Positions 44,060-62,181 of a stretch of DNA of 64,000 bases are shown here, piece by piece; position 1 is the first letter of the stretch, and each line of letters starts with the position of its first letter. Below the pieces are notes generated by a model that did no database searches, was not told where the DNA came from, and worked only from the letters and a program-made list of their open reading frames with translations. Source of the stretch: Kineosporia babensis (GTDB lineage: Bacteria > Actinomycetota > Actinomycetes > Actinomycetales > Kineosporiaceae); contig NZ_JAJOMB010000028.1 of assembly GCF_021129305.1 (NCBI RefSeq), positions 1 to 64,000 on the forward strand, in the 5' to 3' direction. The position numbers and the translations under genes are program-made.

Positions 44060-44956
44060 ATGACGACCACACGCCGACTGCGCGATTTGCTCGGTTCCGA
44101 AGGCCCGCCGCTGATGCTTCCGGGCGCCCCCAACGCCCTGACCGCTCGCGTGGTCGAGGAGGCCGGTTTCGAGGCGGTCTACGTCTCCGGCGCCGGGCTG
44201 ACCAACACCTATCTGGGCATGCCGGACCTGGGCCTGCTGACCCTCTCCGAACTCACCGCCCACGTCGCGGCGATCGCCGACACGGTGGCGATCCCACTGG
44301 TGGTGGACGCCGACACGGGTTTCGGGAACGCGCTCAACGTCCAGCGCACCATCCGGATGCTGGAACGGGCCGGAGCCGCCGGGATTCAGCTCGAGGACCA
44401 GGTAAGCCCCAAGAAGTGCGGTCATTTCGCCGGTAAAGAGGTGATCACGCAGCAGGAGATGGTGGGCAAGATCCACGCCGCCGTCGACGCCCGCAAGGAC
44501 GACGACCTGGTGATTGTGGCTCGTACCGACGCGATCTCGACCGAAGGGCTGGGCCGGGCCCTGGAGCGGATCCAGGCCTACCGCGACGCCGGCGCCGATG
44601 TGCTCTTCGTCGAGGCCCCGGGCGATCACGAGCAGATGGCCGCGATCGTGCGGACGGTGCCCGGCGTCCACATGGCCAACATGGTCGAGGGCGGGCTGAC
44701 CCCGATCACCTCGCGAGAAGATCTGGAGAAGCTGGGCTTCCGGGTCGCGCTCTACGCCAATGCCACCATGCGCGGCGCGGTGGCCGGGATGCGCACCGTG
44801 CTGCAGCACCTGGCCGAGCACGGCGACACCCGCGAGGCCGGCGAGCTGATGATCAGCTGGCAGGACCGGCAGGCGCTGGTGCGCAAGCCCGAGTTCGACC
44901 GTCTGGAAGCGCTTTACGCCGCTGGCGAGTCCGATACCCGAGGAGGAGCCGCATGA
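44060..44956 (+). CDS. ICL/PEP-mutase-family C-C lyase
   Basis: A 298-residue TIM-barrel enzyme of the isocitrate lyase/PEP mutase superfamily. The metal motif DADTGFGN and the catalytic loop PKKCGHFAG (Cys120) mark a lyase (2-methylisocitrate lyase, dimethylmalate lyase or oxaloacetate hydrolase type), not a phosphonomutase. Expected reaction: Mg-dependent retro-aldol cleavage of a 2-hydroxy-dicarboxylate to pyruvate or glyoxylate plus an acid. AAGGA lies 8 bases before ATG 44060. First gene of the operon; its stop overlaps the hydrolase ATG (ATGA). Confidence 0.9.
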   Translation: MTTTRRLRDLLGSEGPPLMLPGAPNALTARVVEEAGFEAVYVSGAGLTNTYLGMPDLGLLTLSELTAHVAAIADTVAIPLVVDADTGFGNALNVQRTIRMLERAGAAGIQLEDQVSPKKCGHFAGKEVITQQEMVGKIHAAVDARKDDDLVIVARTDAISTEGLGRALERIQAYRDAGADVLFVEAPGDHEQMAAIVRTVPGVHMANMVEGGLTPITSREDLEKLGFRVALYANATMRGAVAGMRTVLQHLAEHGDTREAGELMISWQDRQALVRKPEFDRLEALYAAGESDTRGGAA

Positions 44957-46365
44957 CGATGACCTACGACCTCCGGCTGCACGGCGGCCAGGTGTTCCTG
45001 CACGGCAACGGCCTCACCAAGGTCGACCTGCTGATCCAGGACGGCCGGATCGCGGCGATCGTGGAGCCCGGCTTCGAGGCCGCGGCCCGCGAGACCGTGG
45101 AACTGAACGGCAAGCTGGTGCTGCCCGGCGCGATCGACCCGCACGTGCACCTGGGCAAGGACATCCGGGTGCCCAAGGACAGCGACGACGCCCTGCTGGA
45201 GTCCGCCTCGGCGGCGGCCGGCGGGATCACCTCGATGCTCGTCTACCTGATGAGCGGCGAGTCCTACAACGGCGTGGTGCCCGGCGCCCAGCAGGTGATG
45301 GAGAGCGACTCGCACGTCGACTTCGGCTTCCACATCTGCGTGGGCTCGCAGGACCACGTCAAGGAGATCCCCGGCTACATCACCGACTACGGCATCTCCA
45401 GCTTCAAGTTCTTCATGAACTTCCGCGGCGAGGAGGGCGCGTACCTGGGCCTGCCGGGCAACGACGACGGCTACATGTACGACGTGCTGGGGATGGCCGC
45501 CGACCACGGCGCGATGATCAACCCGCACCCGGAGAACATCGAGCTGGTCTGGAAGCTCAAGGGCCGGCCGATCGACGAGAGCCGGGGCCCGCTCGCCGCC
45601 TGGAACGCCTCGCGCCCCTCCTTCGTGGAGGCCGAGGCCGTGCAGCGGGTCGCCTACATGGCCTCGGTGACCGGCGCCTCGGTCTACGCCGTGCACACCA
45701 GCAGCACCCTGGCTCTGGAGGCGATGCGCCGCCAGCGGGAGAGCTACGGCAACCTGTTCGTCGAGACCTGCACCCACTACCTGACTCTGACCACCGACTC
45801 CCCCGCCGGTACCTACGGCAAGGTCAACCCGCCGCTGCGCGAGACCGGCGACCTCGAGAGCCTCTGGGAAGCACTCGCTTCCGGTGAGCTGGACACGGTC
45901 GGCTCGGACCACAACGCCCGGCACCGCTCCTTCAAGGAGAAGGACATCTGGAAGGCCAGCGCCGGCTTCCCCGGCACCGGCGGGGTGCTGCCGCTGACCC
46001 TGGCCGAGGGCCTGCGCCGCGGGATCCCGCTGGAGCGCCTGGTCGATGCCACCTCCACCCGCTCCGCCCAGCTGTTCGGCCTGTACCCGCGCAAGGGCAC
46101 GATCCGGGTCGGTTCCGACGCCGATCTGGCCGTGGTCGACCTGGACGGCTCCTACACGATCAACGCCGAGACCCAGCATTCCGGCGCGGAATACACCCCC
46201 TGGGAAGGCACCGAGGTGCCGCTGCGCATCGTCCACACCATCGTCCGTGGCCACTTCGCCCTGCGCGACGGGGTCCTGTCCGAGACCACCACCGGCACTT
46301 ACTTGCGCCGTGAGACCAGCGGGGCCACCGCACTCGCCACCATCGCGAAGGAGGACCAGCAGTGA
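44953..46365 (+). CDS. Hydantoinase/dihydropyrimidinase-family cyclic amidohydrolase
   Basis: A 470-residue amidohydrolase of the D-hydantoinase family with the full binuclear metal set: DPHVHLG (His64, His66), carbamylatable Lys152 in SSFKFFMNF, INPHPEN, VHTSSTLAL and Asp in GSDHNARH. The reaction is hydrolytic opening of a cyclic amide, imide or ureide ring (hydantoin, dihydropyrimidine, cyclic imide, allantoin-like). Length and order match the family end to end. Coupled to the lyase by an ATGA overlap and to the cysteine hydrolase by a GTGA overlap. Confidence 0.92.
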   Translation: MTMTYDLRLHGGQVFLHGNGLTKVDLLIQDGRIAAIVEPGFEAAARETVELNGKLVLPGAIDPHVHLGKDIRVPKDSDDALLESASAAAGGITSMLVYLMSGESYNGVVPGAQQVMESDSHVDFGFHICVGSQDHVKEIPGYITDYGISSFKFFMNFRGEEGAYLGLPGNDDGYMYDVLGMAADHGAMINPHPENIELVWKLKGRPIDESRGPLAAWNASRPSFVEAEAVQRVAYMASVTGASVYAVHTSSTLALEAMRRQRESYGNLFVETCTHYLTLTTDSPAGTYGKVNPPLRETGDLESLWEALASGELDTVGSDHNARHRSFKEKDIWKASAGFPGTGGVLPLTLAEGLRRGIPLERLVDATSTRSAQLFGLYPRKGTIRVGSDADLAVVDLDGSYTINAETQHSGAEYTPWEGTEVPLRIVHTIVRGHFALRDGVLSETTTGTYLRRETSGATALATIAKEDQQ

Positions 46366-47042
46366 CCGAGGCGACCACACCGTCCGTAATTGATGATCTG
46401 ACCAGAAAGCGCTATGAAGCGGCCGGTTTCGGACGCCCCGTAGGCCTGGGCAGGCGTCCCGGTCTGATGATCATTGACGTGCAGTACCGCACCGTGGGCA
46501 CCGAGCCCCGGCCGTTCGACGAAGCGCTGCAGGAGTTCACCACCAGCTGCGGCGAAGAGGGCTGGGCCGCGGTGCCGCAGATCCAGCAGCTGCTGGAGCT
46601 GTTCCGGGCCAAGGACTGGCCGGTCTTCTACCCGCACGTGGCCCCGAAACAGAGCTACGACCAGGGCGCCCTGGGCGCCAAAGTTCCTGGCATCATGAAC
46701 ATCCCGGCCAAGGGCTACGAGTTCGTCGCCGAGGTGGCGCCGCGCGAGGGCGACGTGCTGCTGCCCAAGCGCCACCCCAGCGCGTTCTTCGGCACTCCGC
46801 TGGCCAGCTACCTGGTCCAGTCCGGGATCGACAGCCTGGTGGTCACCGGCTGCACCACCTCGGGCTGCGTGCGCGGCAGCGTGGTGGATGCGTTCTCGCT
46901 GAACTACAAGGTCGCCGTGCCCAGCGACGCGGTGTACGACCGCAGCCCGATCGTCCACGAGGTCAACCTCTTCGACATGGGCCAGAAGTACGCCGATGTC
47001 TGCACCACCAGCGAGCTGATCACCAAGCTGGAGGCGCTGTGA
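46362..47042 (+). CDS. Isochorismatase-like cysteine hydrolase (amidase)
   Basis: A 226-residue cytoplasmic amidase with the catalytic triad of the family: Asp39 (MIIDVQ), Lys136 (LPKRHPSAFFGT) and Cys169 (GCTTSGCVRGSV). The long N-terminus and sequence style are those of N-carbamoylsarcosine amidohydrolase and maleamate amidohydrolase. It would split the carbamoyl or half-amide left by ring opening, releasing ammonia. GTG 46362 overlaps the hydantoinase stop. Confidence 0.9.
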   Translation: MTEATTPSVIDDLTRKRYEAAGFGRPVGLGRRPGLMIIDVQYRTVGTEPRPFDEALQEFTTSCGEEGWAAVPQIQQLLELFRAKDWPVFYPHVAPKQSYDQGALGAKVPGIMNIPAKGYEFVAEVAPREGDVLLPKRHPSAFFGTPLASYLVQSGIDSLVVTGCTTSGCVRGSVVDAFSLNYKVAVPSDAVYDRSPIVHEVNLFDMGQKYADVCTTSELITKLEAL

Positions 47043-47413
47043 GCTACTGGGCCGCCTTCGGCGAGCTCCCCGAAAGGGAAGTGCTGCCGGGCAACTTCCG
47101 CACCGCGGTGGCCGGCCGGGAGATGAGCATCAACCAGATCCGCTGGGTGCACCCGAGCGTGCTGCCCGAGCACGACCACCCGGACAACGAGCAGGCGATG
47201 GTGGTCACCAGCGGCCGGATCTCGTTCACCGTGGCCGGTGAGGAGACGGTGCTGGAAACCGGTTCCGTGGTGATCATCCCGCGCGGTGTCCGGCACTCGG
47301 GCCGGAGCATCGAGGGTGAGGCCACCTTCGTGGAGATCTTCGCCCCCGGCCGGGTGGAGAACCTGCTCGGCTTCCTGGCCGGCCCGACCATGCCTGACCC
47401 TGAGGAGAACTGA
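47039..47413 (+). CDS. Cupin-domain protein
   Basis: A 124-residue single cupin with the metal-ligand pattern His45, His47, Glu51 and His86 (LPEHDHPDNEQ, PRGVRHSG). It could be a small isomerase, hydrolase or dioxygenase-like enzyme, or a sensor; the pathway role is unknown. GTG start overlaps the previous stop, and its stop shares a base with the next ATG. Confidence 0.85.
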   Translation: MSYWAAFGELPEREVLPGNFRTAVAGREMSINQIRWVHPSVLPEHDHPDNEQAMVVTSGRISFTVAGEETVLETGSVVIIPRGVRHSGRSIEGEATFVEIFAPGRVENLLGFLAGPTMPDPEEN

Positions 47414-48276
47414 TGGCCCTGCAGCAGGTCAGCGAGCACGTGCACGTCGAGATCGCGAATCTCGGCAGCAACAACTCGATCATCGTCGGTGCCCGGGGCC
47501 TGGCCCTGGTCGACACCCCGCACCGGCCCACCGACGCGATCGCCTGGCGCCAGGTGGCGGACGGCTTCGGCCAGACCCGTTACGTGGTCAACACCGACCA
47601 TCACCCCGACCACACCATCGGCAACTACTGGATGGGCGGTGAGGTGGTCTCGCACCGCGGCACCCGCGAGCGGCTGACCGTGGACGCCCCCACCGACCAG
47701 TACCTGGCCGACCTGATGGCCCGGATCGACCCGGACGCGCTGCCGCTGATGGCGCAGTACCAGGTCCGCCGGCCGGAGGTGGTTTTCGACTCGAAGCTCG
47801 AACTGCACCTGGACGACGTGCACCTGGAACTGACCTTCCAGCCCGGGCACACGTCCAACAGCCTGATCGCCTACCTGCCCCAGGACGGGGTGGTGTTCAC
47901 CGGCGACATCGTCTGCGAGGCGGGTCTGCCCTCGTTCCAGGACTCCCGGCTGTGGAACTGGTTCGACGCGATCGACGCGGTGGCCGCCTACGACTTCCAG
48001 GTTCTGATCCCCGGGCACGGCGAAGTAGCCGACCGTGCCGTCCTCGAGCAGTACCGCTCCCAGGGCCGTGAAGTGGTCGGCGACGTCGCCGCCGCGATCA
48101 AGGCCGGCCACAGCCAGGAGCAGGCCTGTGACGAGATCCGGTTCCCCGACAACATCCACGTCGACACCGAGGACTACGTCGGCTACCCCGACGACCTCAT
48201 CGAGATGTTCCAGCGACGCTCGATCTCCCGCATCTACGAAGACCTCCTCGAGCGTCCCGACCTGGCCTCCCGCTAG
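47413..48276 (+). CDS. MBL-fold metallo-hydrolase
   Basis: A 287-residue metallo-beta-lactamase-fold protein with all ligand motifs: TDHHPDHTIGN (residues 62-71), PGHTSNSL, FTGDIVCEAG and IPGHGEV. It hydrolyses an ester, lactone or thioester of unknown identity. In context, lactonase or thioesterase activity on a pathway intermediate is plausible (inference). 69 bases follow before the importer genes. Confidence 0.9.
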   Translation: MALQQVSEHVHVEIANLGSNNSIIVGARGLALVDTPHRPTDAIAWRQVADGFGQTRYVVNTDHHPDHTIGNYWMGGEVVSHRGTRERLTVDAPTDQYLADLMARIDPDALPLMAQYQVRRPEVVFDSKLELHLDDVHLELTFQPGHTSNSLIAYLPQDGVVFTGDIVCEAGLPSFQDSRLWNWFDAIDAVAAYDFQVLIPGHGEVADRAVLEQYRSQGREVVGDVAAAIKAGHSQEQACDEIRFPDNIHVDTEDYVGYPDDLIEMFQRRSISRIYEDLLERPDLASR

Positions 48277-48345: not shown

Positions 48346-49494
48346 ATGCGCATCAACAAGGCAGCTCTGGCCGTCGTCACCGCGGCCGCCCTCTCCCTCA
48401 CCGCCTGCGGCGGAGGCAGCAGCGACGCCGGATCGACCGGCGGCGGCGACTCCGCCGACGGCCAGGCCAAGGTGGAGGCGGCGCAGAAGATCATCGACGC
48501 CGCCAAGGCCGTTCCGGCGACCAACGACCTCGGCGCCCCGATCGACGTCAGCGCGCTCAAGGGCAAGACGATCTACTCGATCCCGATCGACAGCAAGGCC
48601 GAGTTCTACACCGCCGGTGAGAAGGCGATGAAGGAGGTCGCGGCCGAGGCCGGGGTCAACTTCGTGACCTTCCCGTCGGACGGCAGCCAGACCTCCTACC
48701 AGCAGGGCATCGCCCAGGCGATCAACGCCAAGGCCGGCGCCATCCTGCTGAACGGCCCGCTGCCGACCACCCTGGGCCCGCAGATCGACGCCGCCAACAA
48801 GGCCGGGGTGCCGGTGATCCCGCTGCACCTGACCGACAAGGGCGACCCGTCCGCCGAGGGCGTGGAGTACGAGGCGTTCGCCCCGTTCAACGAGGCCGCC
48901 GAGCTGATGACGCTGAACGCGGTGGTCGGGGCCAAGGGCGAGCCGGTGCACGCCCTGGTGATCCAGTCCTCCGAGACCGGCCCGGCCAAGGGCATGGTCG
49001 ACACGGTGGCGAACACCCTGAAGGAGAGCGCTCCTTCGGGCTCGAAGTCCACGGTGATCAACGTGGCCGTGCCGCAGTGGTCGCAGCAGATCCAGAGCCA
49101 GGTGCAGTCGGCCCTGCTGAAGGACCCGAAGATCAACGCGGTGCTGCCGATCTACGACTCGATGGCGCTGTACGCGGCCCCCGGCATCAAGCAGGCGGCC
49201 TCCAACCGTGAGGTGCCGATCTACACGTTCAACGGCACCCCCTCGATCCTGTCCATGGTCAAGGACGGCACGGTGGCGATGGACGTGGCCGAGAACCCGG
49301 ACTGGGTGGCCTACGTCAACATCGACACCGCCTACCGGGCGATGCTGAAGGCCGACCCGATCGAGGCCGCCTCCGGCCCGGTGCGGGTGATCGACTCCAC
49401 CAACGTGGACGAGACCGGCAACCCGCCGGCCAGCGGCAAGGGCTTCGGCGACGAGTACAAGAGCGCGTACCTCGAGCTGTGGGGACTTTCCTGA
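48346..49494 (+). CDS. Ribose-type ABC transporter substrate-binding lipoprotein
   Basis: A 382-residue binding protein: signal peptide with lipobox LTAC (Cys22), Gly/Ser linker, then a type-I periplasmic-binding (Peripla_BP_4) fold with KTIYSIPIDSKAEFY, YQQGIAQAINAKAGAILLNG and VPVIPLHLTDKG. The family binds ribose, other sugars, nucleosides or small organics. GGAG lies about 8 bases before ATG 48346. First of the three importer genes. Confidence 0.9.
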   Translation: MRINKAALAVVTAAALSLTACGGGSSDAGSTGGGDSADGQAKVEAAQKIIDAAKAVPATNDLGAPIDVSALKGKTIYSIPIDSKAEFYTAGEKAMKEVAAEAGVNFVTFPSDGSQTSYQQGIAQAINAKAGAILLNGPLPTTLGPQIDAANKAGVPVIPLHLTDKGDPSAEGVEYEAFAPFNEAAELMTLNAVVGAKGEPVHALVIQSSETGPAKGMVDTVANTLKESAPSGSKSTVINVAVPQWSQQIQSQVQSALLKDPKINAVLPIYDSMALYAAPGIKQAASNREVPIYTFNGTPSILSMVKDGTVAMDVAENPDWVAYVNIDTAYRAMLKADPIEAASGPVRVIDSTNVDETGNPPASGKGFGDEYKSAYLELWGLS

Positions 49495-49496
49495 TC

Positions 49497-51071
49497 ATGA
49501 CTCAAGCGGTGAACACCGCCGGCGACAGCGGGGCGGCGACGCTCGCCCCGCTGTTGCGGGTCAAGGGGCTGAAGAAGTCGTTCAACGGGGTGCCCGCCCT
49601 GCACGGCGTCGACATCGACGTCCGGCCGGGTGAGGTGCACGGGCTGCTCGGTGCCAACGGCAGCGGCAAGTCCACCCTGATCAAGATCCTGGCCGGTTTC
49701 CACGACGCCGACGGCGGCACGGTGACCGCCCACGGCAACGAGGTGAGCAGCCCGTTCGGACCGCGCGGGCTGCGTGACCAGGGCCTGGGTTTCGTGCACC
49801 AGGACCTCGGGCTGGCGCTGAGCAACACCGTGCTGGAGCACATGGCGCTGGACCGTGAGGGCACCTCTCAGGGCTGGGCCCGGGTGGACTGGAAGGCCGA
49901 GCGGGCCCGGGTGCAGGAGCTGCTGGACCGGTTCGAGATCGACGTGGATCCCTCGGCCACGATCGACATGCTCACCCCGGTGCAGCGGGCGATGGTCGCG
50001 GTGATCCGCGCCGTCGGTTCCCAGGAGCGCACCTCCAAGGACCGCAGCCCGGGCCAGATCCTGATTCTGGACGAACCGACCGTGTTCCTGCCCCGGCACG
50101 AGGTCGGCCTGCTGTTCAACGTGCTGCACCGGCTGCGCGACCGGGGCGACGCGGTGCTGCTGGTCTCGCACGACCTGGACGAGATCCTCGAGGTGACGAA
50201 CCGGGTCACGGTGTTCCGCAACGGCCGCACAGCCGGCACCCGCTCCACGGAGGGCGCCACCCGGGACGACCTGGTGCAGCTGATCCTCGGCGCCCGCGAC
50301 GAGCACGTGGCCAAGGGGAAGGCGGTGATCCGGGACGACAAGCCCCCGCTGCTGGCCGCCCGCAAGATCCGCGGAACCCGGGTGCAGGACCTGGATCTGG
50401 ACCTGTTCTCCGGCGAGGTGGTGGGCATCACCGGTCTGGCCGGCTCCGGTTTCGAGGAGCTGCCCGACCTGCTGTTCGGCTCCAAGGCCCTGGTCTCCGG
50501 ATCGCTGGAGCACGGTGGTCAGGCGGTCCGCAAGCCCTCCCCGGTGAAGTCGATGGACGCCGGCGTGGTGCTGATCCCGGCCGACCGCAAGAGCCAGGGC
50601 GGTGCGCTGGAACTGTCGGTGCTGGAGAACATGTCGGTGCCCTTCCTGGCCAAACAGGCCAAGGGCTGGCGGGTTCCGTGGGGCGCGCTGGGCAAGCAGG
50701 CGCAGGACACCTGCCACCGGCTGAACGTGGTGCCGCCCAACCCCCAGGCGATGTTCGGCCACCTCTCCGGCGGTAACCAGCAGAAGGCCCTGCTGGGCAA
50801 GTGGATGGACACCCAGCCGCTGGTGATGCTGCTGAACGAGCCCACTCAGGGCGTCGACATCGGCGCCCGGCGGGAGATCTTCAAGCTGATCCGGGCCGCG
50901 GTCGCCCAGGGCATGGCGGTGCTGTGCGCCACCTCGGACTACGAGCAACTGGTGGAGATGGCCGACCGGGTCCTGGTCGTGGACGAGGGCCGGATCCGGG
51001 CCGAACTGACCGGCGACGACATCACGAAGGACGCGCTGGCGTCCGCCGTTTACGCGGAAGAGGCATCATGA
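49497..51071 (+). CDS. Ribose-type ABC transporter ATPase (RbsA-like, two domains)
   Basis: A 524-residue double nucleotide-binding protein. The first domain has Walker A GANGSGKST and Walker B ILILDEPTVF but a weak signature (LTPVQRAM); the second has a degenerate Walker A (GLAGSGFEEL), clear signature LSGGNQQKALLGKWM and LLNEPTQGVDIGARREI. This asymmetry is normal for RbsA/XylG. ATG 49497 is used; an open extension upstream overlaps the binding-protein gene. The stop overlaps the permease ATG. Confidence 0.93.
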   Translation: MTQAVNTAGDSGAATLAPLLRVKGLKKSFNGVPALHGVDIDVRPGEVHGLLGANGSGKSTLIKILAGFHDADGGTVTAHGNEVSSPFGPRGLRDQGLGFVHQDLGLALSNTVLEHMALDREGTSQGWARVDWKAERARVQELLDRFEIDVDPSATIDMLTPVQRAMVAVIRAVGSQERTSKDRSPGQILILDEPTVFLPRHEVGLLFNVLHRLRDRGDAVLLVSHDLDEILEVTNRVTVFRNGRTAGTRSTEGATRDDLVQLILGARDEHVAKGKAVIRDDKPPLLAARKIRGTRVQDLDLDLFSGEVVGITGLAGSGFEELPDLLFGSKALVSGSLEHGGQAVRKPSPVKSMDAGVVLIPADRKSQGGALELSVLENMSVPFLAKQAKGWRVPWGALGKQAQDTCHRLNVVPPNPQAMFGHLSGGNQQKALLGKWMDTQPLVMLLNEPTQGVDIGARREIFKLIRAAVAQGMAVLCATSDYEQLVEMADRVLVVDEGRIRAELTGDDITKDALASAVYAEEAS

Positions 51072-54742: not shown

Positions 54743-54743
54743 G

Positions 54744-55445: not shown

Positions 55446-56537
55446 ATGAGCAGAACTATTTTCGAGCCGTGGCCGCTCGGCCGGATCACCCTGGCCAACC
55501 GGGTGGTGATGGCCCCGATGACCCGCAACCGGGCCGACGTGGCCGGGGTCCTGCCCGCCTCCGCGATCACCTACTACGAGCAGCGGGCCGGAGCCGGGCT
55601 GATCGTCAGCGAGGCCACCCAGCCCAGCGCGGCCGGGCAGGGCTACCCGGGCACGCCCGGGATTCACGACGACGCGCAGCAGGCGGTCTGGGCCAAGGTC
55701 GCCGAGGCCGTGCACGCCCAGGGCGGGCGGATCTTCTGCCAGCTGATGCACACCGGCCGGATCGGGCACGAGAGCCTGTTGCCGCCGGGCGGCCAGGTGG
55801 TCGGCCCGAGCGCGATCCGCGCCGACCTCGAGGTGGCGACCGCCGACGGGCAGATGGTTCCGTGCCCGATGCCGGTCGAGATGACCACTGCGGTGATCAA
55901 GCAGACCATCCAGGACTTCGCAGACGCCGCGGAACGGGCCGTCGCCGCCGGGATGGACGGTGTGGAGATCCACGGCGCCAACGGATACCTGCCGCACCAG
56001 TTCCTCTCCCCCGGAACCAACCAGCGCAGCGACGAGTACGGCGGATCCCCCGAGAACCGCGCCCGTTTCGTGGTCGAGCTCGCCACCGCGATCGCCGAGC
56101 GGATCGGCGCCGACCGGGTGGGTCTGCGGATCTCGCCCGGCGGCCAGTTCAACGACATGGCCGACAAGGGCAACGACGACACCTACGTGGCCCTGATCCA
56201 GGCGCTCGCCCCGCTGAAGCTGGTCTACCTGCACACCCTGCGCCGCCGTTCCTCGGCTCTGCACGAGCACCTGCGCGAGCTGTGGCCGACCACCTACGTG
56301 ATGAACACCGGCTACCTGGGCAGCAGCGAGATGGACGATCTGGAGCCGATTCTCGCCGAGGGCCAGGCCGACCTGGTCAGCGTCGGGCGGCTGTTCATCT
56401 CCAACCCCGACCTGCTGCAGCGCTGGCGCAACGACCACCCGCGGGCCACCTGGGACGAGGACACGTTCTACACCGGTGGCGACAAGGGCTACATCGACTA
56501 CCCCGTTTCGCAGAATTCGAAGGAGAAGCAGCGATGA
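55446..56537 (+). CDS. Old-yellow-enzyme family ene-reductase
   Basis: A 363-residue FMN TIM-barrel enzyme. Hallmarks: MAPMTRNRA near the start, HTGRIGHESLLPPGG, the substrate/flavin motif EIHGANGYLPHQF, and SDEYGGSPENRARF. The family reduces C=C bonds conjugated to carbonyl or nitro groups with NAD(P)H. ATG 55446 directly follows the regulator stop. Its presence implies an alpha,beta-unsaturated carbonyl intermediate. Confidence 0.93.
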   Translation: MSRTIFEPWPLGRITLANRVVMAPMTRNRADVAGVLPASAITYYEQRAGAGLIVSEATQPSAAGQGYPGTPGIHDDAQQAVWAKVAEAVHAQGGRIFCQLMHTGRIGHESLLPPGGQVVGPSAIRADLEVATADGQMVPCPMPVEMTTAVIKQTIQDFADAAERAVAAGMDGVEIHGANGYLPHQFLSPGTNQRSDEYGGSPENRARFVVELATAIAERIGADRVGLRISPGGQFNDMADKGNDDTYVALIQALAPLKLVYLHTLRRRSSALHEHLRELWPTTYVMNTGYLGSSEMDDLEPILAEGQADLVSVGRLFISNPDLLQRWRNDHPRATWDEDTFYTGGDKGYIDYPVSQNSKEKQR

Positions 56538-57271
56538 CCGAACCATTTGAGGGCCGCGTCGTGGTGGTCACCGGGGCCGCCTCCGGGATCGGCACCGCCA
56601 CCGTCGAGGTGTTCCGCCGGCAGGGCGCCACCGTGGTCGGCTGGGACATCGCCGGCACCCCCGAGGCCGGCCCGGTCGACCTCACCGACCCGGCCGCCGT
56701 GAAGGCCGCCGCGGCCCGGGTCAAGGAGCAGCACGGACGGGTTGACGCGCTGGTCAACTGCGCCGGGGTGATCACCGAGAACATCCAGGCCGACCAGGTC
56801 GACCCGGCCGACTTCCAGAAGTGCTTCAGCGTCAACGTGGTCGGCACCCTGAACGCCAGCCAGGCGCTGTACCCGGCGCTGGCCGAGGGCAAGGGCGCAA
56901 TCGTGAACGTGGCCTCGCAGGCCGCCCTGGTCTGCCTGCCCAGCCAGTCGGCCTACTCCGCGTCCAAGGGCGCGGTGGCCGCGCTGACCCGCTCGCTGGC
57001 GATCGACTGGGCCTCGGCCGGGGTCCGGGTCAACGCCGTGTGCCCGGGCTTCACCCTGACCCCGATGGCCAAGCAGCAGATGACCCCGGAGCTGGACGCC
57101 GCGGTCTCCCGCCGGGTGCCGCTGGGCCGGATGTTCGAGCCGGACGAGATCGGCAACGTGATCGCCTTCCTGGCCTCGCCCGGTGCCTCCGCGGTGACCG
57201 GCGTGGTGATGGCGGTCGACGGTGGCTGGACCGCCGGTGAGCCCGCGCTGCCGATGGGAGGCGAGAAGTGA
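56534..57271 (+). CDS. Short-chain dehydrogenase/reductase 1
   Basis: A 245-residue classical SDR: nucleotide motif TGAASGIGTA, NCAGVI, catalytic Ser in NVASQAAL, and YSASK. AGGAG lies about 9 bases before ATG 56534, which overlaps the ene-reductase stop. It interconverts a hydroxyl and ketone; the substrate is unknown. Confidence 0.92.
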   Translation: MTEPFEGRVVVVTGAASGIGTATVEVFRRQGATVVGWDIAGTPEAGPVDLTDPAAVKAAAARVKEQHGRVDALVNCAGVITENIQADQVDPADFQKCFSVNVVGTLNASQALYPALAEGKGAIVNVASQAALVCLPSQSAYSASKGAVAALTRSLAIDWASAGVRVNAVCPGFTLTPMAKQQMTPELDAAVSRRVPLGRMFEPDEIGNVIAFLASPGASAVTGVVMAVDGGWTAGEPALPMGGEK

Positions 57272-58014
57272 CCGTCGCCTACGTGACCGGCGCCAGTTCC
57301 GGCATCGGTAAGGGCGCCGCGGTGCGCCTGGCCCAGGACGGCGCGAAGGTGGTGCTGCTCGGCCGTAACGAGAAGCGGCTGGCCGAGGCCGTGGCCGAGT
57401 GCGGGCCGCAGGCCGCCTACGCCGCGTTCGACGCTGCCGACCCGGCCGAGGTGAACAGCCACCTGCCGGCGCTGATCGAGCAGCACGGCAACCCGGACGT
57501 GGTGGTGCACGCCGCCGGGATCACCGTGGTGGGTGCGCTGGACCAGCTCACCCCGCAGGAGTGGCACCAGCAGATGGACGCCAACCTGAACAGCATCTAC
57601 TACCTGAACAAGCACCTGTGGCCGGCGATGGCGCTCAACGGTGGATCGATCGTCCTGGTCGCCTCCACCGCCTCGTTCGCCGCCTTCCCGCAGGACGCGG
57701 CCTACGTCGCCTCCAAGGGCGCGGTGCTGGCGCTGACCAAGGCGATGGCCCTGGACGGTGCGGCGCAGGGGATCCGGGTGAACGCGGTCTGCCCGGGCTT
57801 CATCCTGACGCCCAACCTTCAGGGGTATTTCGACGCCCAGGCCGATCCGGCGGCGGCAGCCGGAGGTGCGGCCGCCGCGGCACCTCTGAACCGGATGGGC
57901 ACGCCCGAGGACGTGGCCGGGGCGGTGGCGTTCTTCGCCTCGCCCGACTCGTCCTTCGTCACCGGCACCTCGATCCTGGTCGACGGCGGGCTGATGGCTC
58001 GCGTGCCGGGCTGA
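57268..58014 (+). CDS. Short-chain dehydrogenase/reductase 2
   Basis: A 248-residue classical SDR: TGASSGIGKG, HAAGIT in place of the usual NAG, Ser in VASTASF, and YVASK. An Ala-rich insertion (PAAAAGGAAAAAPL) lies before the final helix. GTG 57268 overlaps the first SDR stop. Two different SDRs in series suggest two oxidation steps or two stereocentres. Confidence 0.92.
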   Translation: MTVAYVTGASSGIGKGAAVRLAQDGAKVVLLGRNEKRLAEAVAECGPQAAYAAFDAADPAEVNSHLPALIEQHGNPDVVVHAAGITVVGALDQLTPQEWHQQMDANLNSIYYLNKHLWPAMALNGGSIVLVASTASFAAFPQDAAYVASKGAVLALTKAMALDGAAQGIRVNAVCPGFILTPNLQGYFDAQADPAAAAGGAAAAAPLNRMGTPEDVAGAVAFFASPDSSFVTGTSILVDGGLMARVPG

Positions 58015-58070: not shown

Positions 58071-59447
58071 ATGGCAACAGAGAACGATGTTGACGTGGTG
58101 ATCGTCGGTGCGGGCGGCGGTGGGCTGGTGGCCGCTCTCGCGGCGGCCGACCGCGGCGCCTCCGTGGTGGTGCTGGAGAAGCTGAACGAGGCCGGCGGCA
58201 ACACCGGCCTGTCGACCGGCTCGATCCCGGGCGGCGGCTCGGCCCAGCAGAAGGCCGCCGGGGTGAACGACGACCCGGAGCGGATGTTCACCGACCTGAT
58301 GCGCCAGAGCGGCCCGCACGAGGCCGAGCACCTCACCCGCCGGCTGGCCGAGACCTCGGGCGCGCTGGTCGACTGGCTGGTGGACAAGCACCACGTCCGA
58401 CTCAAGCTGATCCTCGACTACAAGCACGTCGGGCACTCGGTCAACCGGCTGCACGCCCCGGCCTCCCGCCGGGGTGGAGACCTGGTCGCCGACCTCCTGG
58501 CCGCCTGCGAGAAGGCCGGTGTCGACGTGATTCTCGGCAACCCGGTGGCCGGGCTGATCGTCGAGGACGGCGTGGTGCGCGGCGTCAAGGTCGAGGGCGA
58601 GCGGATCGAGCCGTACGAACTGCGCGCCGGGGCGGTGATCCTGGCCGCCAACGGCTTCGCGGCCAACCGCGACCTGGTCACCAGGTGGGCGCCGGAACTG
58701 GCCTCGCTGGAGTATTTCGGCGCGCACGGCTCCACCGGCGAGGCGATCGAATGGGGTCTGCAGGTCGGCGGGCACCTGAAAAATGCCGCTGCCTTCCAGG
58801 GCTACGCCGCGGTCGCGTACCCGCACGGCAGCATCCTGTCCTGGACCACGGTCGAGAAGGGCGGCGTGCTGATCGATTCCACCGGGTCCCGGATGGGCGA
58901 CGAGATCGTCGGCTACTCCGGCTTCACCACCGAGGTCACCGGCGGCCAGCAGCCGATCTGGGCGCTGTACGACACCCGGATCCGCGACATCACCCTCCGC
59001 GAGGACGAGTACCGCGAGCTGGTCGAGATGGGCGGCGCCAAGGAGTGCGCCGACGATCAGGAGGTCGCTCAGGTCACCGGAGTTCCGCTCGACGCCCTGC
59101 GCGACACGCTGGAGCAGTACGCCAGCGCCAGCCGGGGAGATCGCCCGGATCAGCACGGCCGCACCGACTTCGGCGCCGAGCCGCTGCGCCCGCCGTACGT
59201 GGTCTCGCGGGTCACGCCCGGCCTGTTCCACACCCAGGGCGGCCTGGATGTCGATACCGAAGGACGCGTGTTGCGCGGCGACGGCTCCGAGGTTCCGGGG
59301 CTGTTCGCGGTGGGTGGCGTCGCGGCCGGTGTCAGTGGCCAGACCGGAGGGCGCGGGTACTCGTCGGGGAACGGCCTGCTCACCGCGGTGGGTCTCGGGC
59401 AACTGGCGGGAGACGCGGCGGCCGACTTCGTGGGTAGCGGAGACTGA
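58071..59447 (+). CDS. FAD-dependent dehydrogenase/reductase (fumarate-reductase / ketosteroid-dehydrogenase type)
   Basis: A 458-residue flavoprotein of the FAD_binding_2 family: VVIVGAGGGGLVAALAAADRG at residues 10-30 (key GAGGGGL), GGNTGLSTGSIPGGG, and the C-terminal FAD loop GGRGYSSGNGLLTAVGLG. Such enzymes introduce or reduce a C=C bond next to a carbonyl or carboxylate. GGGAGGG lies 3-9 bases before ATG 58071. It could act opposite the ene-reductase on the same or a related intermediate. Confidence 0.9.
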   Translation: MATENDVDVVIVGAGGGGLVAALAAADRGASVVVLEKLNEAGGNTGLSTGSIPGGGSAQQKAAGVNDDPERMFTDLMRQSGPHEAEHLTRRLAETSGALVDWLVDKHHVRLKLILDYKHVGHSVNRLHAPASRRGGDLVADLLAACEKAGVDVILGNPVAGLIVEDGVVRGVKVEGERIEPYELRAGAVILAANGFAANRDLVTRWAPELASLEYFGAHGSTGEAIEWGLQVGGHLKNAAAFQGYAAVAYPHGSILSWTTVEKGGVLIDSTGSRMGDEIVGYSGFTTEVTGGQQPIWALYDTRIRDITLREDEYRELVEMGGAKECADDQEVAQVTGVPLDALRDTLEQYASASRGDRPDQHGRTDFGAEPLRPPYVVSRVTPGLFHTQGGLDVDTEGRVLRGDGSEVPGLFAVGGVAAGVSGQTGGRGYSSGNGLLTAVGLGQLAGDAAADFVGSGD

Positions 59448-59451
59448 TCCG

Positions 59452-60816
59452 ATGGTAGACGAAACTGTCTGGCAGGCCTGGCGCTCGGCCCTCATCGAGC
59501 GTCTGGACCGGCTGGCCGGAGGTCTGCCCGACGACGTGCGGCGCAAGGCCTCGCTGGTGCTGGTGGACGATCTGGCCGCGATGGTGGCCGGGCATGAGCA
59601 CAGCGAGGTCGCCGCCTTCACCGGAGCTCTCCGGGGCACGGGAAGCAACGGTGAGGCAACGGTTCTCGACGGCTCGCGGGCCGCCCGGGACCGGGCGGCG
59701 GCGGCCAATGCGGTCGCCGCCGGCTGGGACGAGCTCGACGAGGGCTACCGCCCGGCCACCTGCCACGGCGGGCTCTACGCGATCCCGGCCGCCCTGGCGG
59801 AGGCCGAGGCTAACCAGGCCGGTCTGGACGAGCTGCTCACGGCCGTGGTCGCCGGGTACGAGGTGGCCACCGCCGTGGCCCGGCTGTTCCCGGCACCCCG
59901 GCCGCTGGTGCTGCACCCGCACGCCACGCTCTCGCCGATCGGCGCCGCCGCAGCCGTGGCCTGGCTGCGCACCCGTTCCGGATCCGGCGTACTCGCCGCT
60001 GCCGACGTTGCCGCCACCACCTCGATGTCCGGCCCGTTCCGCCACGCCACCGCCGGTGCTCAGGTACGTAACCTCTGGGCCGCCTCCGGGGCCATGTCCG
60101 GGTTCCTCGCCGTCGACGCCACCCACGCCGGGCTCACCGCCGACGAGTCCACCCTGCTCGACGTGTTCGCCAACGGCTACGACTACCCGCTCAACGAGGC
60201 CGAACTCACCGCCCGGCCGGAGCAGTTCGCGATCCTTGACGGCTACCACAAGCTCTACGCCACCTGCCAGTACGCGCACTCGGCCCTCGAGGCCGCCCGC
60301 GACCTGGCCACCGCCGGCGGCTGGGACGCGTCCCAGATCTCGCAGGTAACCGTGGCCACCCACCCTCTGGCCATGCCGCTCGACTCCACCGCTCCGGCCA
60401 CCGCTCTGGGTGGCAAGTTCTCGCTGCCGCACGTGGTCGCCGCCGTGCTGGCCACCGGCCGGGACGACGCCGAGGTGTTCTCCGGGCGCCGCCTGAACGA
60501 TCCAGCGGTTGCAGCCCTGCGCCCCAAGATCAGCCTGGTGCCCTACGAACCGCTCCCCGAAGCTCCGCACGACCGGCCGGCCCGCGTCGAGGTGTCGTTC
60601 CTGAACGGAACCAGCCGCAGCGCAACCTGTCTGAGCGCGATCGGCGGCCCCGACCGTCCGTTGTCGGAGGCTCAGGTGCTCGCCAAGGCCGGCGACCTGA
60701 CCGCCGAAGCCGCCCCACGTTTCGCTGCCGTGGCCACCGCCCTGGTCGGCGGCGAGCTGGACGCAACCCGCCCCTGGGCGGACGTTCTCCACGATCTGAT
60801 CGCCAAGGAGCACTGA
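59452..60816 (+). CDS. MmgE/PrpD-family protein 1
   Basis: A 454-residue protein of the 2-methylcitrate dehydratase-like fold: DDLAAMVAGHEHSEVAAF, the substrate-loop ANAVAAGWDELDEGYRPATCHGG (key WDELDEG), an all-helical core, and a C-terminal domain with SLPHVVAAVLATGR. Family reactions are dehydration, isomerisation, epimerisation or decarboxylation of tricarboxylate-like acids. The pattern HP at LHPHATLSPIGA replaces the usual HPG in this class. Starts 4 bases after the flavoprotein stop. Confidence 0.87.
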   Translation: MVDETVWQAWRSALIERLDRLAGGLPDDVRRKASLVLVDDLAAMVAGHEHSEVAAFTGALRGTGSNGEATVLDGSRAARDRAAAANAVAAGWDELDEGYRPATCHGGLYAIPAALAEAEANQAGLDELLTAVVAGYEVATAVARLFPAPRPLVLHPHATLSPIGAAAAVAWLRTRSGSGVLAAADVAATTSMSGPFRHATAGAQVRNLWAASGAMSGFLAVDATHAGLTADESTLLDVFANGYDYPLNEAELTARPEQFAILDGYHKLYATCQYAHSALEAARDLATAGGWDASQISQVTVATHPLAMPLDSTAPATALGGKFSLPHVVAAVLATGRDDAEVFSGRRLNDPAVAALRPKISLVPYEPLPEAPHDRPARVEVSFLNGTSRSATCLSAIGGPDRPLSEAQVLAKAGDLTAEAAPRFAAVATALVGGELDATRPWADVLHDLIAKEH

Positions 60817-62181
60817 ATGACCTCGCTGTCCCAGCGGCTCGCCGACGCAGCGGTGAGCGCGGCCGCCGACATCCCCGCCGAGGTCGACCGCTCTGCCCGC
60901 CTGCACCTGCTCGACAGCCTGGCCGTCGGCAGCCTCGGCGCGGCCCGAGGACCGGTGCGAGGCCTGCGCAGCCTGCCGAAGGGCGAGACCGGCAAGGCCA
61001 CCGTGATCGGCTCCTCGGCCAGCGCCAGTGCACCCGAAGCCGCGCTGCTGAACGGCTCTTTCATTCATTCGCTGGAGTACGACGACACCCACGTGGCCTC
61101 GGTCATGCACGGCAGCGCCACCCTCACGCCCGCAGCGCTCGCAGCCGCCGAGACCGCCGAGGTGGGTGGCGCGCGGATGATCGCCGCCTACGCCGTCGGC
61201 TGGGAGGTACTGATCCGGATGGGCCTGGCCAGCCCGGGAACGCTTCAGGCGCAAGGCTTTCAGACCACTTCCGCGGCCGGCCCGTTCGCGGCCGCCCTGG
61301 TCTCGGTCCTGGTGCAGGGCGACACCGAGCACGCCGTCAATGCGCTGGGCATTGCCGGTAGCCAGCCCGGGGGCACGTTCGCGTTCCTGGCCGGCGGCGA
61401 CACGGTCAAGGCGGCCCAGCCGGGGTGGGCCGCTCACAGCGGGCTCTGGGCAGCCGACCTGGCCCGGCACGGCGTGACCGGCCCGAGTGGGGTGCTCGAC
61501 GGCGACTACGGCTTCTACCGTCTGTACGCCGACGACGAGCGGGCTCCGCAACGGCTCGGCGCCGAACTCGACTCCCTCGGTCACACCTGGCACCTGCCCG
61601 ATGCCGCGTTCAAGCTGGTGCCCTGCTGCCACTTCATCCACCCCTACGTCGAGGCCGTCCAGCAGTTGACGGCCCAGGGCCTGACCTGGGAAAACGTGGC
61701 TTCGTGGCGGGTCAGGGTGGCGCCCGGGGCGGCGCCGGTGATCGCCGAGCCGTGGAGCACCCGGCAGTTGCCGGCCAAGGCGCACGACGTGCGGTGGAGC
61801 CTGCCCTACGTGATGGCCGCCCAGTTGGTGGACGGCACGGTGGGCCTGGATCTGTTCGAGGCGCCGATCGGTGGGGCGAGGGCAGACCTGGCTGCCCGAA
61901 TGACCTGCGAACCCTGGGCGGACAGCGGATTTCCGGCTCGTTTCCCGGCCTGGGTGGAGGTCAGCACCACCGACGGCCGGCAGTTACAGGCCGAGGTGAA
62001 CGACGTGCTCGGTGGCGCCGGCCGCCCGGTGCCGGAAGAATCGGTACTCGCCAAGACCCGCACCTGCCTGGCCGAAGCCGGCCTGCCCAGTTCGGCGATC
62101 GAACTCATAGTGACGATGGTGCTCGACGAGAAGGACTTCGACCCGGCCGCCCTGGGGGGCCTGCTGCGTCTGCGGCGCTGA
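60817..62181 (+). CDS. MmgE/PrpD-family protein 2
   Basis: A 454-residue paralogue with the more canonical motifs LLDSLAVGSLGAARG, SFIHSLEYDDTH, and KLVPCCHFIHPYVEAV near the C-terminal domain. The ATG abuts the stop of the first copy (TGAATG). Tandem, equal-length but divergent copies suggest either a heteromer or two successive hydro-lyase/isomerase steps before the ICL-type lyase. Last gene of the operon. Confidence 0.88.
   Translation: MTSLSQRLADAAVSAAADIPAEVDRSARLHLLDSLAVGSLGAARGPVRGLRSLPKGETGKATVIGSSASASAPEAALLNGSFIHSLEYDDTHVASVMHGSATLTPAALAAAETAEVGGARMIAAYAVGWEVLIRMGLASPGTLQAQGFQTTSAAGPFAAALVSVLVQGDTEHAVNALGIAGSQPGGTFAFLAGGDTVKAAQPGWAAHSGLWAADLARHGVTGPSGVLDGDYGFYRLYADDERAPQRLGAELDSLGHTWHLPDAAFKLVPCCHFIHPYVEAVQQLTAQGLTWENVASWRVRVAPGAAPVIAEPWSTRQLPAKAHDVRWSLPYVMAAQLVDGTVGLDLFEAPIGGARADLAARMTCEPWADSGFPARFPAWVEVSTTDGRQLQAEVNDVLGGAGRPVPEESVLAKTRTCLAEAGLPSSAIELIVTMVLDEKDFDPAALGGLLRLRR

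Follow-up and report, generated by a model that had tools for sequence, protein, structure and literature searches.

A GntR-associated gene island in Kineosporia babensis proposed to catabolise a substituted cyclic imide

The 64,000-nucleotide stretch of Kineosporia babensis DNA analysed in this study (hereafter the window) carries 17 head-to-tail coding sequences, all on the plus strand, between positions 44060 and 62181, and the core of this island recurs patchily across phyla, from actinobacteria to Methylobacterium, with a shared operator-like motif (Table 1). We propose, with moderate confidence, that these genes belong to a GntR-controlled regulon for the catabolism of a substituted cyclic imide by ring opening, nitrogen removal and cleavage of the carbon skeleton. 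Imide ring opening and alkylmalate cleavage would thereby be joined in one apparent regulon, and an unassigned nitrogen/carbon source becomes directly testable. The island also offers a way into the function of genes of the hydantoinase, isochorismatase, MmgE/PrpD and PEP-mutase families whose annotation stops at the superfamily level. The original prediction counted sixteen genes; all those that it named are present, but it had left out the cupin, the MBL-fold hydrolase and the second GntR regulator, and gntR1 and the operator-like motif lie just upstream of its start at 44060. The genes are overlapping or nearly so, as it had described: among the 16 neighbour pairs, seven overlap by 1-4 bp, five are spaced by 0-4 bp, one by 24 bp and three by 56-72 bp.

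Table 1. Features of the island and its upstream region, in window coordinates
Feature	Position	Strand	Basis
Weak second copy of operator-like motif, upstream of gntR1	42219..42236	+	3/18 mismatches
gntR1, FCD-type GntR regulator, conserved with core	42314..42988	+	Pfam FCD and GntR
Putative GntR operator AACTGTTGACAGTTGTCA	43892..43909	+	motif search of genome
Core: ICL/PEP-mutase superfamily C-C lyase, KKCGH	44060..44956	+	prpB model, PDB match
Core: hydantoinase-fold cyclic amidohydrolase, proposed imidase	44953..46365	+	D-hydantoinase model, metal ligands
Core: isochorismatase-fold amidase, proposed half-amide hydrolase	46362..47042	+	Pfam Isochorismatase, PDB matches
Feeder: small cupin, conserved	47039..47413	+	Pfam Cupin_2
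Feeder: MBL-fold metallohydrolase	47413..48276	+	Pfam Lactamase_B
Feeder: solute-binding protein, sugar-type ABC family	48346..49494	+	Pfam Peripla_BP_4
Feeder: ABC transporter ATPase, two-domain sugar type	49497..51071	+	profile matches
Feeder: ABC permease	51068..52081	+	Pfam BPD_transp_2
Feeder: NDMA-dependent (mycofactocin-type) alcohol dehydrogenase	52106..53218	+	TIGR03989
Feeder: aldehyde dehydrogenase	53291..54742	+	Pfam Aldedh
gntR2, second FCD-type GntR regulator	54744..55445	+	present here in part of feeder loci
Feeder: old yellow enzyme, N-ethylmaleimide-reductase subfamily	55446..56537	+	PRK10605
Feeder: SDR 1	56534..57271	+	profile matches, comparison of loci
Feeder: SDR 2	57268..58014	+	profile matches, comparison of loci
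Core: FAD dehydrogenase, flavocytochrome c / TcuA / ketosteroid dehydrogenase superfamily	58071..59447	+	TIGR01813
Core: MmgE/PrpD protein 1	59452..60816	+	Pfam N and C domains
Core: MmgE/PrpD protein 2	60817..62181	+	Pfam N and C domains

The island had also been taken as one unit. Judged by comparison across loci, it is by descent a core plus a detachable feeder and not a single block. The core consists of the ICL-type lyase, the hydantoinase-fold amidohydrolase (the ring opener), a NicF-like amidase, a flavocytochrome/TcuA-like FAD dehydrogenase and two MmgE/PrpD proteins, and the feeder consists of the cupin, the MBL-fold protein, the ABC importer, the mycofactocin-type alcohol dehydrogenase, the aldehyde dehydrogenase, the old yellow enzyme (OYE) and two SDRs. 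The core recurs in Streptomyces, Nocardia, Pseudonocardia and Methylobacterium, and all six core enzymes are also found on Methylobacterium plasmids (in M. nodulans by annotation). Among the loci examined, the feeder was found only in actinobacteria and in one MAG labelled Rubrivirga. The arrangement is more than chance: G004 (one of five same-genus genomes) and G329 carry all 17 genes in identical order together with gntR1; G159 has them in the same order with no gntR1 match above 100 bits in the stretch, and in G126 the island genes are reordered and there is no gntR2 match. Carriers are rare, at 2 of 98 relatives (the window's own genome counted) and 4 of 394 genomes of the class.

The ring opener belongs to a clade of 55 sequences (support 97/85). 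An amidase lies within 9 kb of the ring opener in 54 of these 55 compared with 3 of 33 outside the clade, and a lyase in 48 compared with 1 of 33, the clade members without one including Arthrobacter (L040), Brevibacterium (L060) and Variovorax (L098). A FAD homologue was found within 9 kb in 29 of the 55 clade rows and MmgE in 20 (1/33 outside for each); these are counts by distance, so the window's own FAD and MmgE genes, which lie 13-15 kb off, are uncounted, and the 26 rows with no FAD homologue and 35 with no MmgE within 9 kb are partly due to contig ends. When the grouping of lyase, hydantoinase, amidase and MmgE/PrpD genes seen in the window was checked for synteny, the set was found to recur together across phyla. 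Literature searches found no description of such a cluster.

The pairing of amidase and ring opener in nearly every clade row fits consecutive steps, and this argues against a lactam or enamide route in which the amidohydrolase would open a lactam or enamide and the amidase would act on an unrelated amide. Enamidase catalyses such an opening in anaerobic nicotinate breakdown, a pathway to whose terminal lyase the original prediction drew a parallel, and the family is broad. However, an opened lactam is an amine and not an amide, and we regard this route as very unlikely.

None of the core proteins reaches the equivalog cut-off of a named enzyme. The lyase reaches 292.8 bits with the prpB model (cut-off 354.4), and its best PDB match is the petal death protein (8e-58), with methylisocitrate lyases next. 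It does contain the KKCGH reported earlier, in agreement with the K(K/R)CGH with catalytic Cys that is the hallmark of the ICL/PEP-mutase superfamily (PrpB, PDP, DML), and CGH is conserved in the aligned homologues, with L065 and the second copy of L026 as exceptions. The ring opener reaches 281.1 bits with the D-hydantoinase equivalog model (cut-off 393.25) and carries the binuclear metal ligands H64, H66, K152, H192, H248 and D319 (K152 being the Lys carbamylated in the family), which all aligned rows share unless they are truncated at those positions. In place of the Tyr, Ser and Asn of D-hydantoinase, which presumably bind the ring amide, it has F157, N292 and A337, so the type of ring is itself uncertain. 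The best PDB matches of the amidase are 3ot4/3uao (9.4e-32), which we take to be NicF (maleamate amidohydrolase) and with which it has TTSGCVR in common; 1nba (N-carbamoylsarcosine amidohydrolase) is a nearby third (2.4e-27), and the best NCBIfam match, RutB, is weak (57 bits, cut-off 377.95). The FAD dehydrogenase reaches 239.4 bits with TIGR01813 (cut-off 285.45) and 153 bits with the TcuA (tricarballylate dehydrogenase) equivalog (cut-off 369). Both MmgE/PrpD proteins have their N- and C-terminal Pfam domains above gathering. Protein 1 has no NCBIfam match, and its best PDB match is IDS epimerase (8.5e-9); protein 2 best matches 7bra, deposited as Bacillus subtilis IRG1 (9.3e-33), and reaches 46.3 bits with the PrpD (2-methylcitrate dehydratase) equivalog (cut-off 950).

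Membership of the ring opener in the dihydropyrimidinase/hydantoinase superfamily, together with the 1nba and RutB matches, would be expected if a cyclic ureide (dihydropyrimidine or hydantoin) were opened, the isochorismatase-fold enzyme were an N-carbamoyl hydrolase like N-carbamoylsarcosine amidohydrolase or RutB, and the rest degraded the carbon skeleton. However, 3ot4/3uao stand ahead of 1nba among the solved relatives of the amidase, the D-hydantoinase residues are replaced, and a dicarboxylic acid, rather than an amino acid, would be the natural compound to pass on to an ICL-type lyase and hydratases. A ureide route would also want an amine-removing enzyme, and none was recognised in the island, where profile scans of the proteins found no aminotransferase. 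A ureide is therefore quite unlikely, and of the "cyclic imide, lactam or ureide" first named as substrate, the imide is partly supported.

The operator-like motif (AACTGTTGACAGTT) lies at window 43892-43905, and the site at 43892..43909 (AACTGTTGACAGTTGTCA) is the only one with at most one mismatch in the 9.4-Mb genome; the window has 2 matches to the motif versus 0.02 expected. The exact motif was found in 33 of 54 loci of the ring-opener clade and in none of 34 other loci, while a reversed control was found in none of the 54. At one mismatch it was absent from 18 of the 54, including five of the six plasmids in the set. In one search the backward control also gave one match each in G000 and G004; the G000 match can be read as the same motif site shifted by one base. 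In nine genomes the motif stands ahead of the core and again ahead of the feeder (with a single mismatch at one of the sites). It also precedes the lyase of two Methylobacterium plasmids, and its conservation spans Actinomycetota and Alphaproteobacteria. Because clade loci, Methylobacterium lyases and, in the nine genomes, both core and feeder have it in common, core and feeder are probably one regulon. Homologues of gntR1 stand at 78% in G004 and at 36-60% in other loci where gntR1 is the best match, and we infer that this GntR regulator pairs with the putative operator.

In the feeder, the NDMA-type assignment of the alcohol dehydrogenase was supported by 471.2 bits with TIGR03989 (cut-off 440), and the genome also encodes the maturase MftC (655.9 bits). 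Mycofactocin genes lie near the cluster in relatives, and all 7 feeder carriers tested have MftC, compared with 1 of 7 genomes in which the locus examined is without the feeder; however, mycofactocin also occurs in 4 of 4 same-genus genomes without the island. A mycofactocin-type dehydrogenase in this setting points to a physiological role that extends past simple alcohols. The 4 of 394 class genomes with the amidohydrolase are also those with an MBL-fold homologue. The OYE reaches 310.7 bits with PRK10605 (cut-off 403); an OYE that reduces C=C and a FAD enzyme that oxidises C=C would need different substrates.

Ribose-type import of a sugar or glycoside, as first suggested, was not upheld, as the solute-binding protein reaches 40.8 bits with RbsB against a cut-off of 337. 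This score also weighs against a pathway for sugars or polyols in which the hydrolases are promiscuous and a simple sugar is the inducer. The ABC importer is of a sugar-type family, but no sugar kinase or aldolase was recognised in the island proteins scanned, and MHS, TRAP, TTT or branched-chain-type transporter genes adjoin the core in relatives, which makes this explanation highly improbable. Organic-acid-type transporters adjoin many core-only loci, which suggests that core-only bacteria import an already carboxylated imide.

What the comparison establishes is the gene content, its joint occurrence across phyla and the common operator-like motif; we infer every reaction and the substrate class of the proposed imide route. 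The ABC importer would take up a precursor bearing an alcohol group, which the mycofactocin-dependent alcohol dehydrogenase and the aldehyde dehydrogenase would convert to a carboxylate. The OYE and SDRs may tune the redox state of the ring or side chain, perhaps making the imide from a lactam (compare the OYE HxnT and SDR HxnW of Aspergillus). The hydantoinase-fold enzyme would open the cyclic imide to a half-amide, the NicF-like amidase would release ammonia and a substituted succinate (or an unsaturated form), and the FAD enzyme would dehydrogenate this substituted acid to an alkylmaleate/aconitate-type acid. The MmgE/PrpD pair would hydrate this acid, probably fixing the stereochemistry, and the PrpB/petal-death-type lyase would split the alkylmalate so formed into a carboxylic acid and a 2-oxo acid, either pyruvate or glyoxylate. 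The original joining of imide logic with ICL-type cleavage thus survives in the co-recurrence of ring-opening, half-amide, hydration/isomerisation and ICL-type genes, without its sugar or glycoside part.

A more specific version, to which we give little credence, is that the island is a missing bacterial route for the monopyrrole end products of chlorophyll and haem. These would be maleimides, for example hematinic acid (carboxyethyl-methyl-maleimide) or hydroxyalkyl-methyl-maleimides. Oxidation of the hydroxyalkyl side chain to a carboxylate would fall to the mycofactocin-dependent dehydrogenase and the aldehyde dehydrogenase, the imidase and amidase would give a 2-methyl-cis-aconitate homologue for hydration by the MmgE/PrpD pair, and the PrpB-like lyase would yield pyruvate and succinate or glutarate. 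If so, core-only genomes would import hematinic-type acids directly.

The ring could instead be six-membered, a glutarimide or glutaconimide from a pyridine, e.g. a 2,6-dihydroxypyridine-4-carboxylate such as citrazinate. The OYE and SDRs would saturate and oxidise the ring, the amidohydrolase would open it, and a tricarballylate/aconitate-type triacid would then meet the FAD dehydrogenase, hydratase and ICL-type lyase. Consistent with this, Aspergillus nidulans treats nicotinate-derived rings with an OYE, SDR, cyclic imidase and amidase (PMC9304392), aconitase genes adjoin or lie near ring-opener relatives, with a TcuA gene about 11 kb off in one, and PF02738 (molybdenum hydroxylase family) is on the cluster contig about 28 kb away in the window, 44 kb in G159 and 82 kb in G126. 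However, the search for PF02738 gave no gene within the island, in carrier G329's genome or on 2 of the 3 plasmids covered, and plain aconitate would need no dedicated hydratases, given the central aconitase. This variant is rather unlikely.

Other enzyme families may replace some steps of the imide route. Shinella and Antarctobacter have the aconitase AcnA beside the ring opener and amidase, and Hydrogenophaga has a PrpB-annotated lyase. In Haloferax and Natrinema, the FAD enzyme, amidase and ring opener are accompanied by genes for a CoA transferase, an HMG-CoA lyase and the subunits of isopropylmalate dehydratase, and the stretch examined contains no ICL-type lyase. These two haloarchaea appear to carry the same logic through other families, which supports hydration followed by cleavage of a substituted maleate. 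However, the substrate and steps may be different in Haloferax, whose ring opener falls outside the 55-sequence clade and which carries an MmgE/PrpD gene as well.

The 2-methylcitrate cycle ends with the MmgE/PrpD-family hydratase PrpD and then the lyase PrpB. The island resembles it in combining the MmgE/PrpD family with a PrpB-type lyase, but has no methylcitrate synthase, has two divergent MmgE proteins and couples them to ring opening and deamidation. Anaerobic nicotinate catabolism in Eubacterium barkeri involves an amidohydrolase ring step, alkylmaleate hydration and then an ICL-superfamily 2,3-dimethylmalate lyase, and clusters of this type feature a B12 mutase, a hydroxynicotinate reductase and an aconitase-type hydratase. 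The island shares the ring step and the terminal lyase; however, none of those three features was named among the matches of the 19 proteins scanned, nitrogen would leave by an isochorismatase-fold amidase, and hydration is proposed for MmgE/PrpD and not an aconitase-family enzyme. Bacterial cyclic imide metabolism uses an imidase and a half-amidase, and its succinate-type products enter the TCA cycle without a lyase. The island shares this two-step logic from imide to dicarboxylate. The precedent of a hydantoinase-like imidase has to be corrected: the P. putida YZ-26 imidase (AAY98498) differs in fold from the ring opener, being 64% identical to Aspergillus HxnM with a PuuE/HpPgdA-related fold (PMC9304392), whereas phthalimide hydrolysis was shown for a dihydropyrimidinase (PMC4437985). 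In the A. nidulans nicotinate pathway (HxnT-HxnW-HxnM-HxnN), HxnM has this PuuE/HpPgdA-related fold and HxnN is FAAH-like, unlike the island enzymes, and the route as described in that source stops at 2-hydroxyglutarate, without MmgE/PrpD or an ICL-type lyase; like the island, it places an OYE and an SDR before a cyclic imidase and an amide hydrolase (PMC9304392).

The island is a single run of 17 coding sequences, and neighbouring genes overlap by 1-4 bp in 7 of the 16 pairs, with a widest gap of 72 bp (see table). The original prediction was thus right about the gene run, though it counted sixteen genes. Among the island enzymes only the alcohol dehydrogenase (ADH) exceeded an NCBIfam cut-off among the matches listed (TIGR03989, 471.2 bits against 440), which bears out its assignment to the NDMA type. 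The remaining enzymes are members of broad superfamilies and score under the thresholds of named enzymes. A BCCT transporter gene 3' of the island was considered as a further member but is not supported as one, since no BCCT match was found within 3.6 kb after the copy of the island in a genome of the same genus (G004). Elsewhere in the window, translations read as candidates for an arabinofuranosidase and a binding-protein-dependent sugar importer.

Features of the island and its surroundings (positions in the window)
Feature	Position	Strand	Basis
Additional GntR gene (gntR1)	42314-42988		family scan
Weaker operator-like copy	from 42219		18-mer match
Perfect 17-nt inverted repeat	43187-43230		
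Five diverged repeat units	43397-43505		
Operator-like motif AACTGTTGACAGTT	43892-43905 (extended form to 43909)		palindrome scan
Island, 17 coding sequences	44060-62181	+	
Island order, first half: ICL/PEP-mutase-type lyase, hydantoinase-fold amidohydrolase, isochorismatase-fold amidase, cupin, MBL-fold hydrolase, ABC solute-binding protein, ATPase, permease		+	family scans
Island order, second half: NDMA-type alcohol dehydrogenase, aldehyde dehydrogenase, GntR regulator (gntR2), old yellow enzyme, two SDRs, FAD dehydrogenase, two MmgE/PrpD proteins		+	family scans
28-nt palindrome	53234-53261		
BCCT transporter gene	62438-64000		
Candidate arabinofuranosidase and sugar importer	32619-37232		read from translations

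The hydantoinase-fold amidohydrolase, called the ring opener here, was detected in 2 of the 98 relatives, namely the window's own genome and one of five from the same genus, and in 4 of 394 genomes of the class, the window's included. Homologues of the MBL protein occur in the identical four. A single scan across a set of 84,980 species genomes yielded 164 confirmed related stretches, and among the best 80 of these 164 loci the carriers include Nocardioides, Aeromicrobium, Dietzia, Streptomyces, Nocardia, Pseudonocardia, Prauserella, Amycolatopsis, Micromonospora, Patulibacter and Nanopelagicales MAGs. Mapping of the window proteins onto the loci and onto stretches of four other genomes, together with clustering of predicted ORFs, shows that the island consists of two units. 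The core comprises the lyase, ring opener, amidase and FAD enzyme, with the MmgE pair present or absent and gntR1 often included. The feeder comprises the cupin, MBL protein, ABC importer, ADH, aldehyde dehydrogenase (ALDH), old yellow enzyme (OYE) and SDRs, with OYE or gntR2 missing from some loci. Streptomyces, several Nocardia, Micromonospora and others have the core without the feeder in examined stretches of up to about 21 kb, and this separate occurrence of core and feeder in other genomes contradicts the view that the island was inherited as one block. Genes of one MFS family lie near the core in 24 loci, nine of which (L031-L039) also have feeder genes; the one member scanned was nearest to metabolite/H+ symporters (TIGR00883, 394 bits against a cut-off of 443).

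A maximum-likelihood tree of 88 ring openers placed the window's protein in a clade of 55 with support of 97/85. Neighbours were counted within 9 kb of the ring opener at bit thresholds of 120 (amidase), 200 (lyase), 150 (MmgE) and 250 (FAD). With counts that are minima both inside and outside the clade because many contigs stop near the gene, an amidase homologue was found for 54 of 55 clade members versus 3 of 33 outside, a lyase for 48/55 versus 1/33, an FAD homologue for 29/55 versus 1/33 and an MmgE homologue for 20/55 versus 1/33. The last two clade counts are by distance, and become 30 and 21 when the window's row is included by hand label, its FAD and MmgE genes being 13-15 kb off. Methylobacterium aquaticum is the single clade row without an amidase within 9 kb, and its amidase lies about 10 kb off in the same gene run. 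In the Haloferax row, outside the clade, the MmgE gene is slightly past 9 kb. Locus L063, whose ring opener shares 51% identity with that of the window, was omitted from the tree because a contig end cuts this gene, but the locus is still counted among the 34 outside loci in the motif search.

The generic GntR half-site T.GT..AC.A gave nothing conserved, and a palindrome scan of the gap 5' of the lyase, used instead, found AACTGTTGACAGTT. Of 54 clade loci, 33 carry this 14-mer exactly and 36 carry it with at most one mismatch, versus 0 and 1 of the 34 outside loci, the one being the truncated, clade-like L063. A reversed-motif control was exact in 0 of the 54 clade loci. The 18-mer matched twice in the window where 0.02 matches were expected, and in the 9.4-Mb genome the extended motif has no other site at one mismatch or fewer. 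When nine genomes were searched, the extended-motif site was present in five of five carriers and in none of four non-carriers of the same genus. The backward control gave one match in G004 and one in the window's own genome, the latter explicable as that genome's own site shifted onward by one base. A pattern with two more fixed bases was exact in 4 of 394 class genomes, three of them ring-opener carriers, and the fourth carrier (G159) matches it at one mismatch only. The remaining exact match (G425:C1:5094327, L114) lies between genes read from the sequence as HAD-type hydrolase-like and RidA-like, in a genome where the ring opener is absent at 1e-90; it is possibly a chance match, because the backward control also gave one match in the 394 genomes.

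Nine genomes (G004, G329, G126 and those of loci L015, L016, L017, L018, L019 and L041) have two sites, one before the lyase or gntR1 and one before the cupin that starts the feeder, with one mismatch in the L015 feeder site and none in all the others. In the window the amidase and cupin genes overlap, so a second site before the feeder would not be needed. The motif results lead to the conclusion that core and feeder are probably one regulon, and gntR1 is, from its position, the putative binder of the motif. On two Methylobacterium plasmids the exact motif begins upstream of the lyase, by 121 bp on one and 112 bp on the other. The remaining five plasmids in the clade set gave no site at one mismatch or fewer, and neither did an additional Variovorax plasmid and a Natrinema plasmid at two or fewer.

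The 1.07-kb gap that separates gntR1 from the lyase, about twice as long as that in G004, also contains a perfect inverted repeat of 17 nt around a 10-nt loop (AACGCGTAAACAAAGTG / CACTTTGTTTACGCGTT) and five diverged GTACCGAG-type units at 16-nt spacing. Between the ADH and ALDH genes lies a 28-nt palindrome, GAGGACGCCCGCCGCGGCGGGCGTCCTC, a possible attenuator or processing site.

Mycofactocin functions in alcohol metabolism, and genes resembling those for mycofactocin maturation lie upstream of the island, at most 10 kb away, in Nocardioides caldifontis, Aeromicrobium and two MAG loci. MftB, MftC and MftD of N. caldifontis and MftE of Aeromicrobium passed their cut-offs; the MftG-like GMC protein was below its own. 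MftC was above cut-off in 7 of 7 feeder carriers tested versus 1 of 7 genomes judged to lack the feeder at the examined locus, where L040 and L060 also lack the lyase. However, MftC likewise occurs in all four genomes of the same genus that lack the island, so mycofactocin looks necessary for feeder carriers without being specific to them.

The ring opener keeps all six metal-site residues and has a 7-residue insertion after the lysine loop. It has Phe, Asn and Ala where D-hydantoinases align Tyr, Ser and Asn, which presumably bind the ring amide. The lyase has the KKCGH motif, and its nearest solved structures are the petal death protein and methylisocitrate lyases. At the position of a PrpB Arg, which we take to be 241 in literature numbering, the window's lyase keeps Arg, the petal death protein has Tyr, and the Methylobacterium and Novosphingobium lyases have Gln. 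The accessible part of PMC7609661 does not confirm the role of this Arg, so reading side-chain specificity from single residues was abandoned and no substrate was inferred from it. The nearest solved relatives of the amidase are 3ot4/3uao, with N-carbamoylsarcosine amidohydrolase (1nba) third; those of MmgE1 and MmgE2 are IDS epimerase (8.5e-9) and a B. subtilis protein deposited as IRG1, respectively. Closest to the FAD protein are flavocytochrome c fumarate reductases, and the MBL protein has weak solved relatives only (best 7.5e-10).

The most economical reading of these families is that the ring opener would convert an imide to a half-amide and the amidase the half-amide to a dicarboxylate, which would be dehydrogenated, hydrated and then cleaved by the lyase. 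The feeder would supply a carboxylated imide from an alcohol. An imide is preferred over a ureide because no amino-group-removing enzyme was recognised and the later families act on di- and tricarboxylates. A five-membered imide would directly yield the vicinal dicarboxylate needed by the lyase family, whereas a six-membered one would require an additional carboxylate. In known pathways tricarboxylates are handled by TcuA-like, aconitase, PrpD-like and PrpB-like families. Beside the core, several relatives have transporter genes of the organic-acid type (MHS, TRAP, TTT), and others a branched-chain-type ABC importer. Because of these tricarboxylate-handling families and organic-acid-type transporters, the picture of a carboxylated imide that the feeder makes from an alcohol is consistent, though unproven. 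A sugar or glycoside substrate was rejected, given the score of the solute-binding protein, the lack of recognised sugar enzymes and the different transporter families in relatives. A tetrapyrrole maleimide, proposed on chemical grounds only, is an unlikely candidate. A molybdenum hydroxylase serving a pyridine route was also considered and none was found in the island; a gene of this family lies at about 89.9 kb on the same contig (C21 of G000, the window's own genome), about 28 kb downstream of the island.

Relatives were also found in 27 records of annotated plasmids, 11 of which were studied in context. Two Methylobacterium plasmids carry genes for GntR, lyase, amidase, ABC importer, MmgE, FAD enzyme, MmgE and ring opener, and two Variovorax plasmids carry MmgE, FAD, MmgE, GTPase, ring opener and amidase, with the lyase absent from the stretch. 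In Shinella and Antarctobacter, aconitase AcnA accompanies the ring opener and amidase, and an ICL-type lyase is close by. Hydrogenophaga has ring opener, amidase and a PrpB-annotated lyase, and about 11 kb away a TcuA gene that scores above cut-off despite being cut by the locus end. An unannotated Novosphingobium record has ring opener, amidase and lyase by profile search. Aminobacter, outside the clade, has a ring opener and an isochorismatase-family gene, and lyase and MmgE were not seen there. On plasmids of Haloferax gibbonsii (L100) and Natrinema zhouii (L120), the amidase (isochorismatase) and ring opener are joined by a CoA transferase, HMG-CoA lyase, both isopropylmalate dehydratase subunits (large and small) and an FAD enzyme, and in Haloferax additionally by an MmgE/PrpD gene; these runs may encode an archaeal counterpart of the pathway. 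Both haloarchaeal ring openers share about 36% identity with that of the window, and the Haloferax one, the one in the tree, falls outside the clade, so their substrate may differ. Given the established chemistry of these families, a single logic would be common to three hydratase families and two cleavage systems, in which an alkylmaleate-type acid is hydrated and the resulting alkylmalate is split.

A full-text literature search, with most subscription papers outside its reach, found no published description of this gene set. All of the enzyme families are already known, and what is new is their combination, the operator-like motif and the recurrence across phyla. The best published parallel is the nicotinate route of Aspergillus nidulans, which brings OYE, SDR, imidase and amidase together. 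However, as far as the accessible part of that report (PMC9304392) describes it, the fungal route uses enzymes of other folds and proceeds without a lyase.
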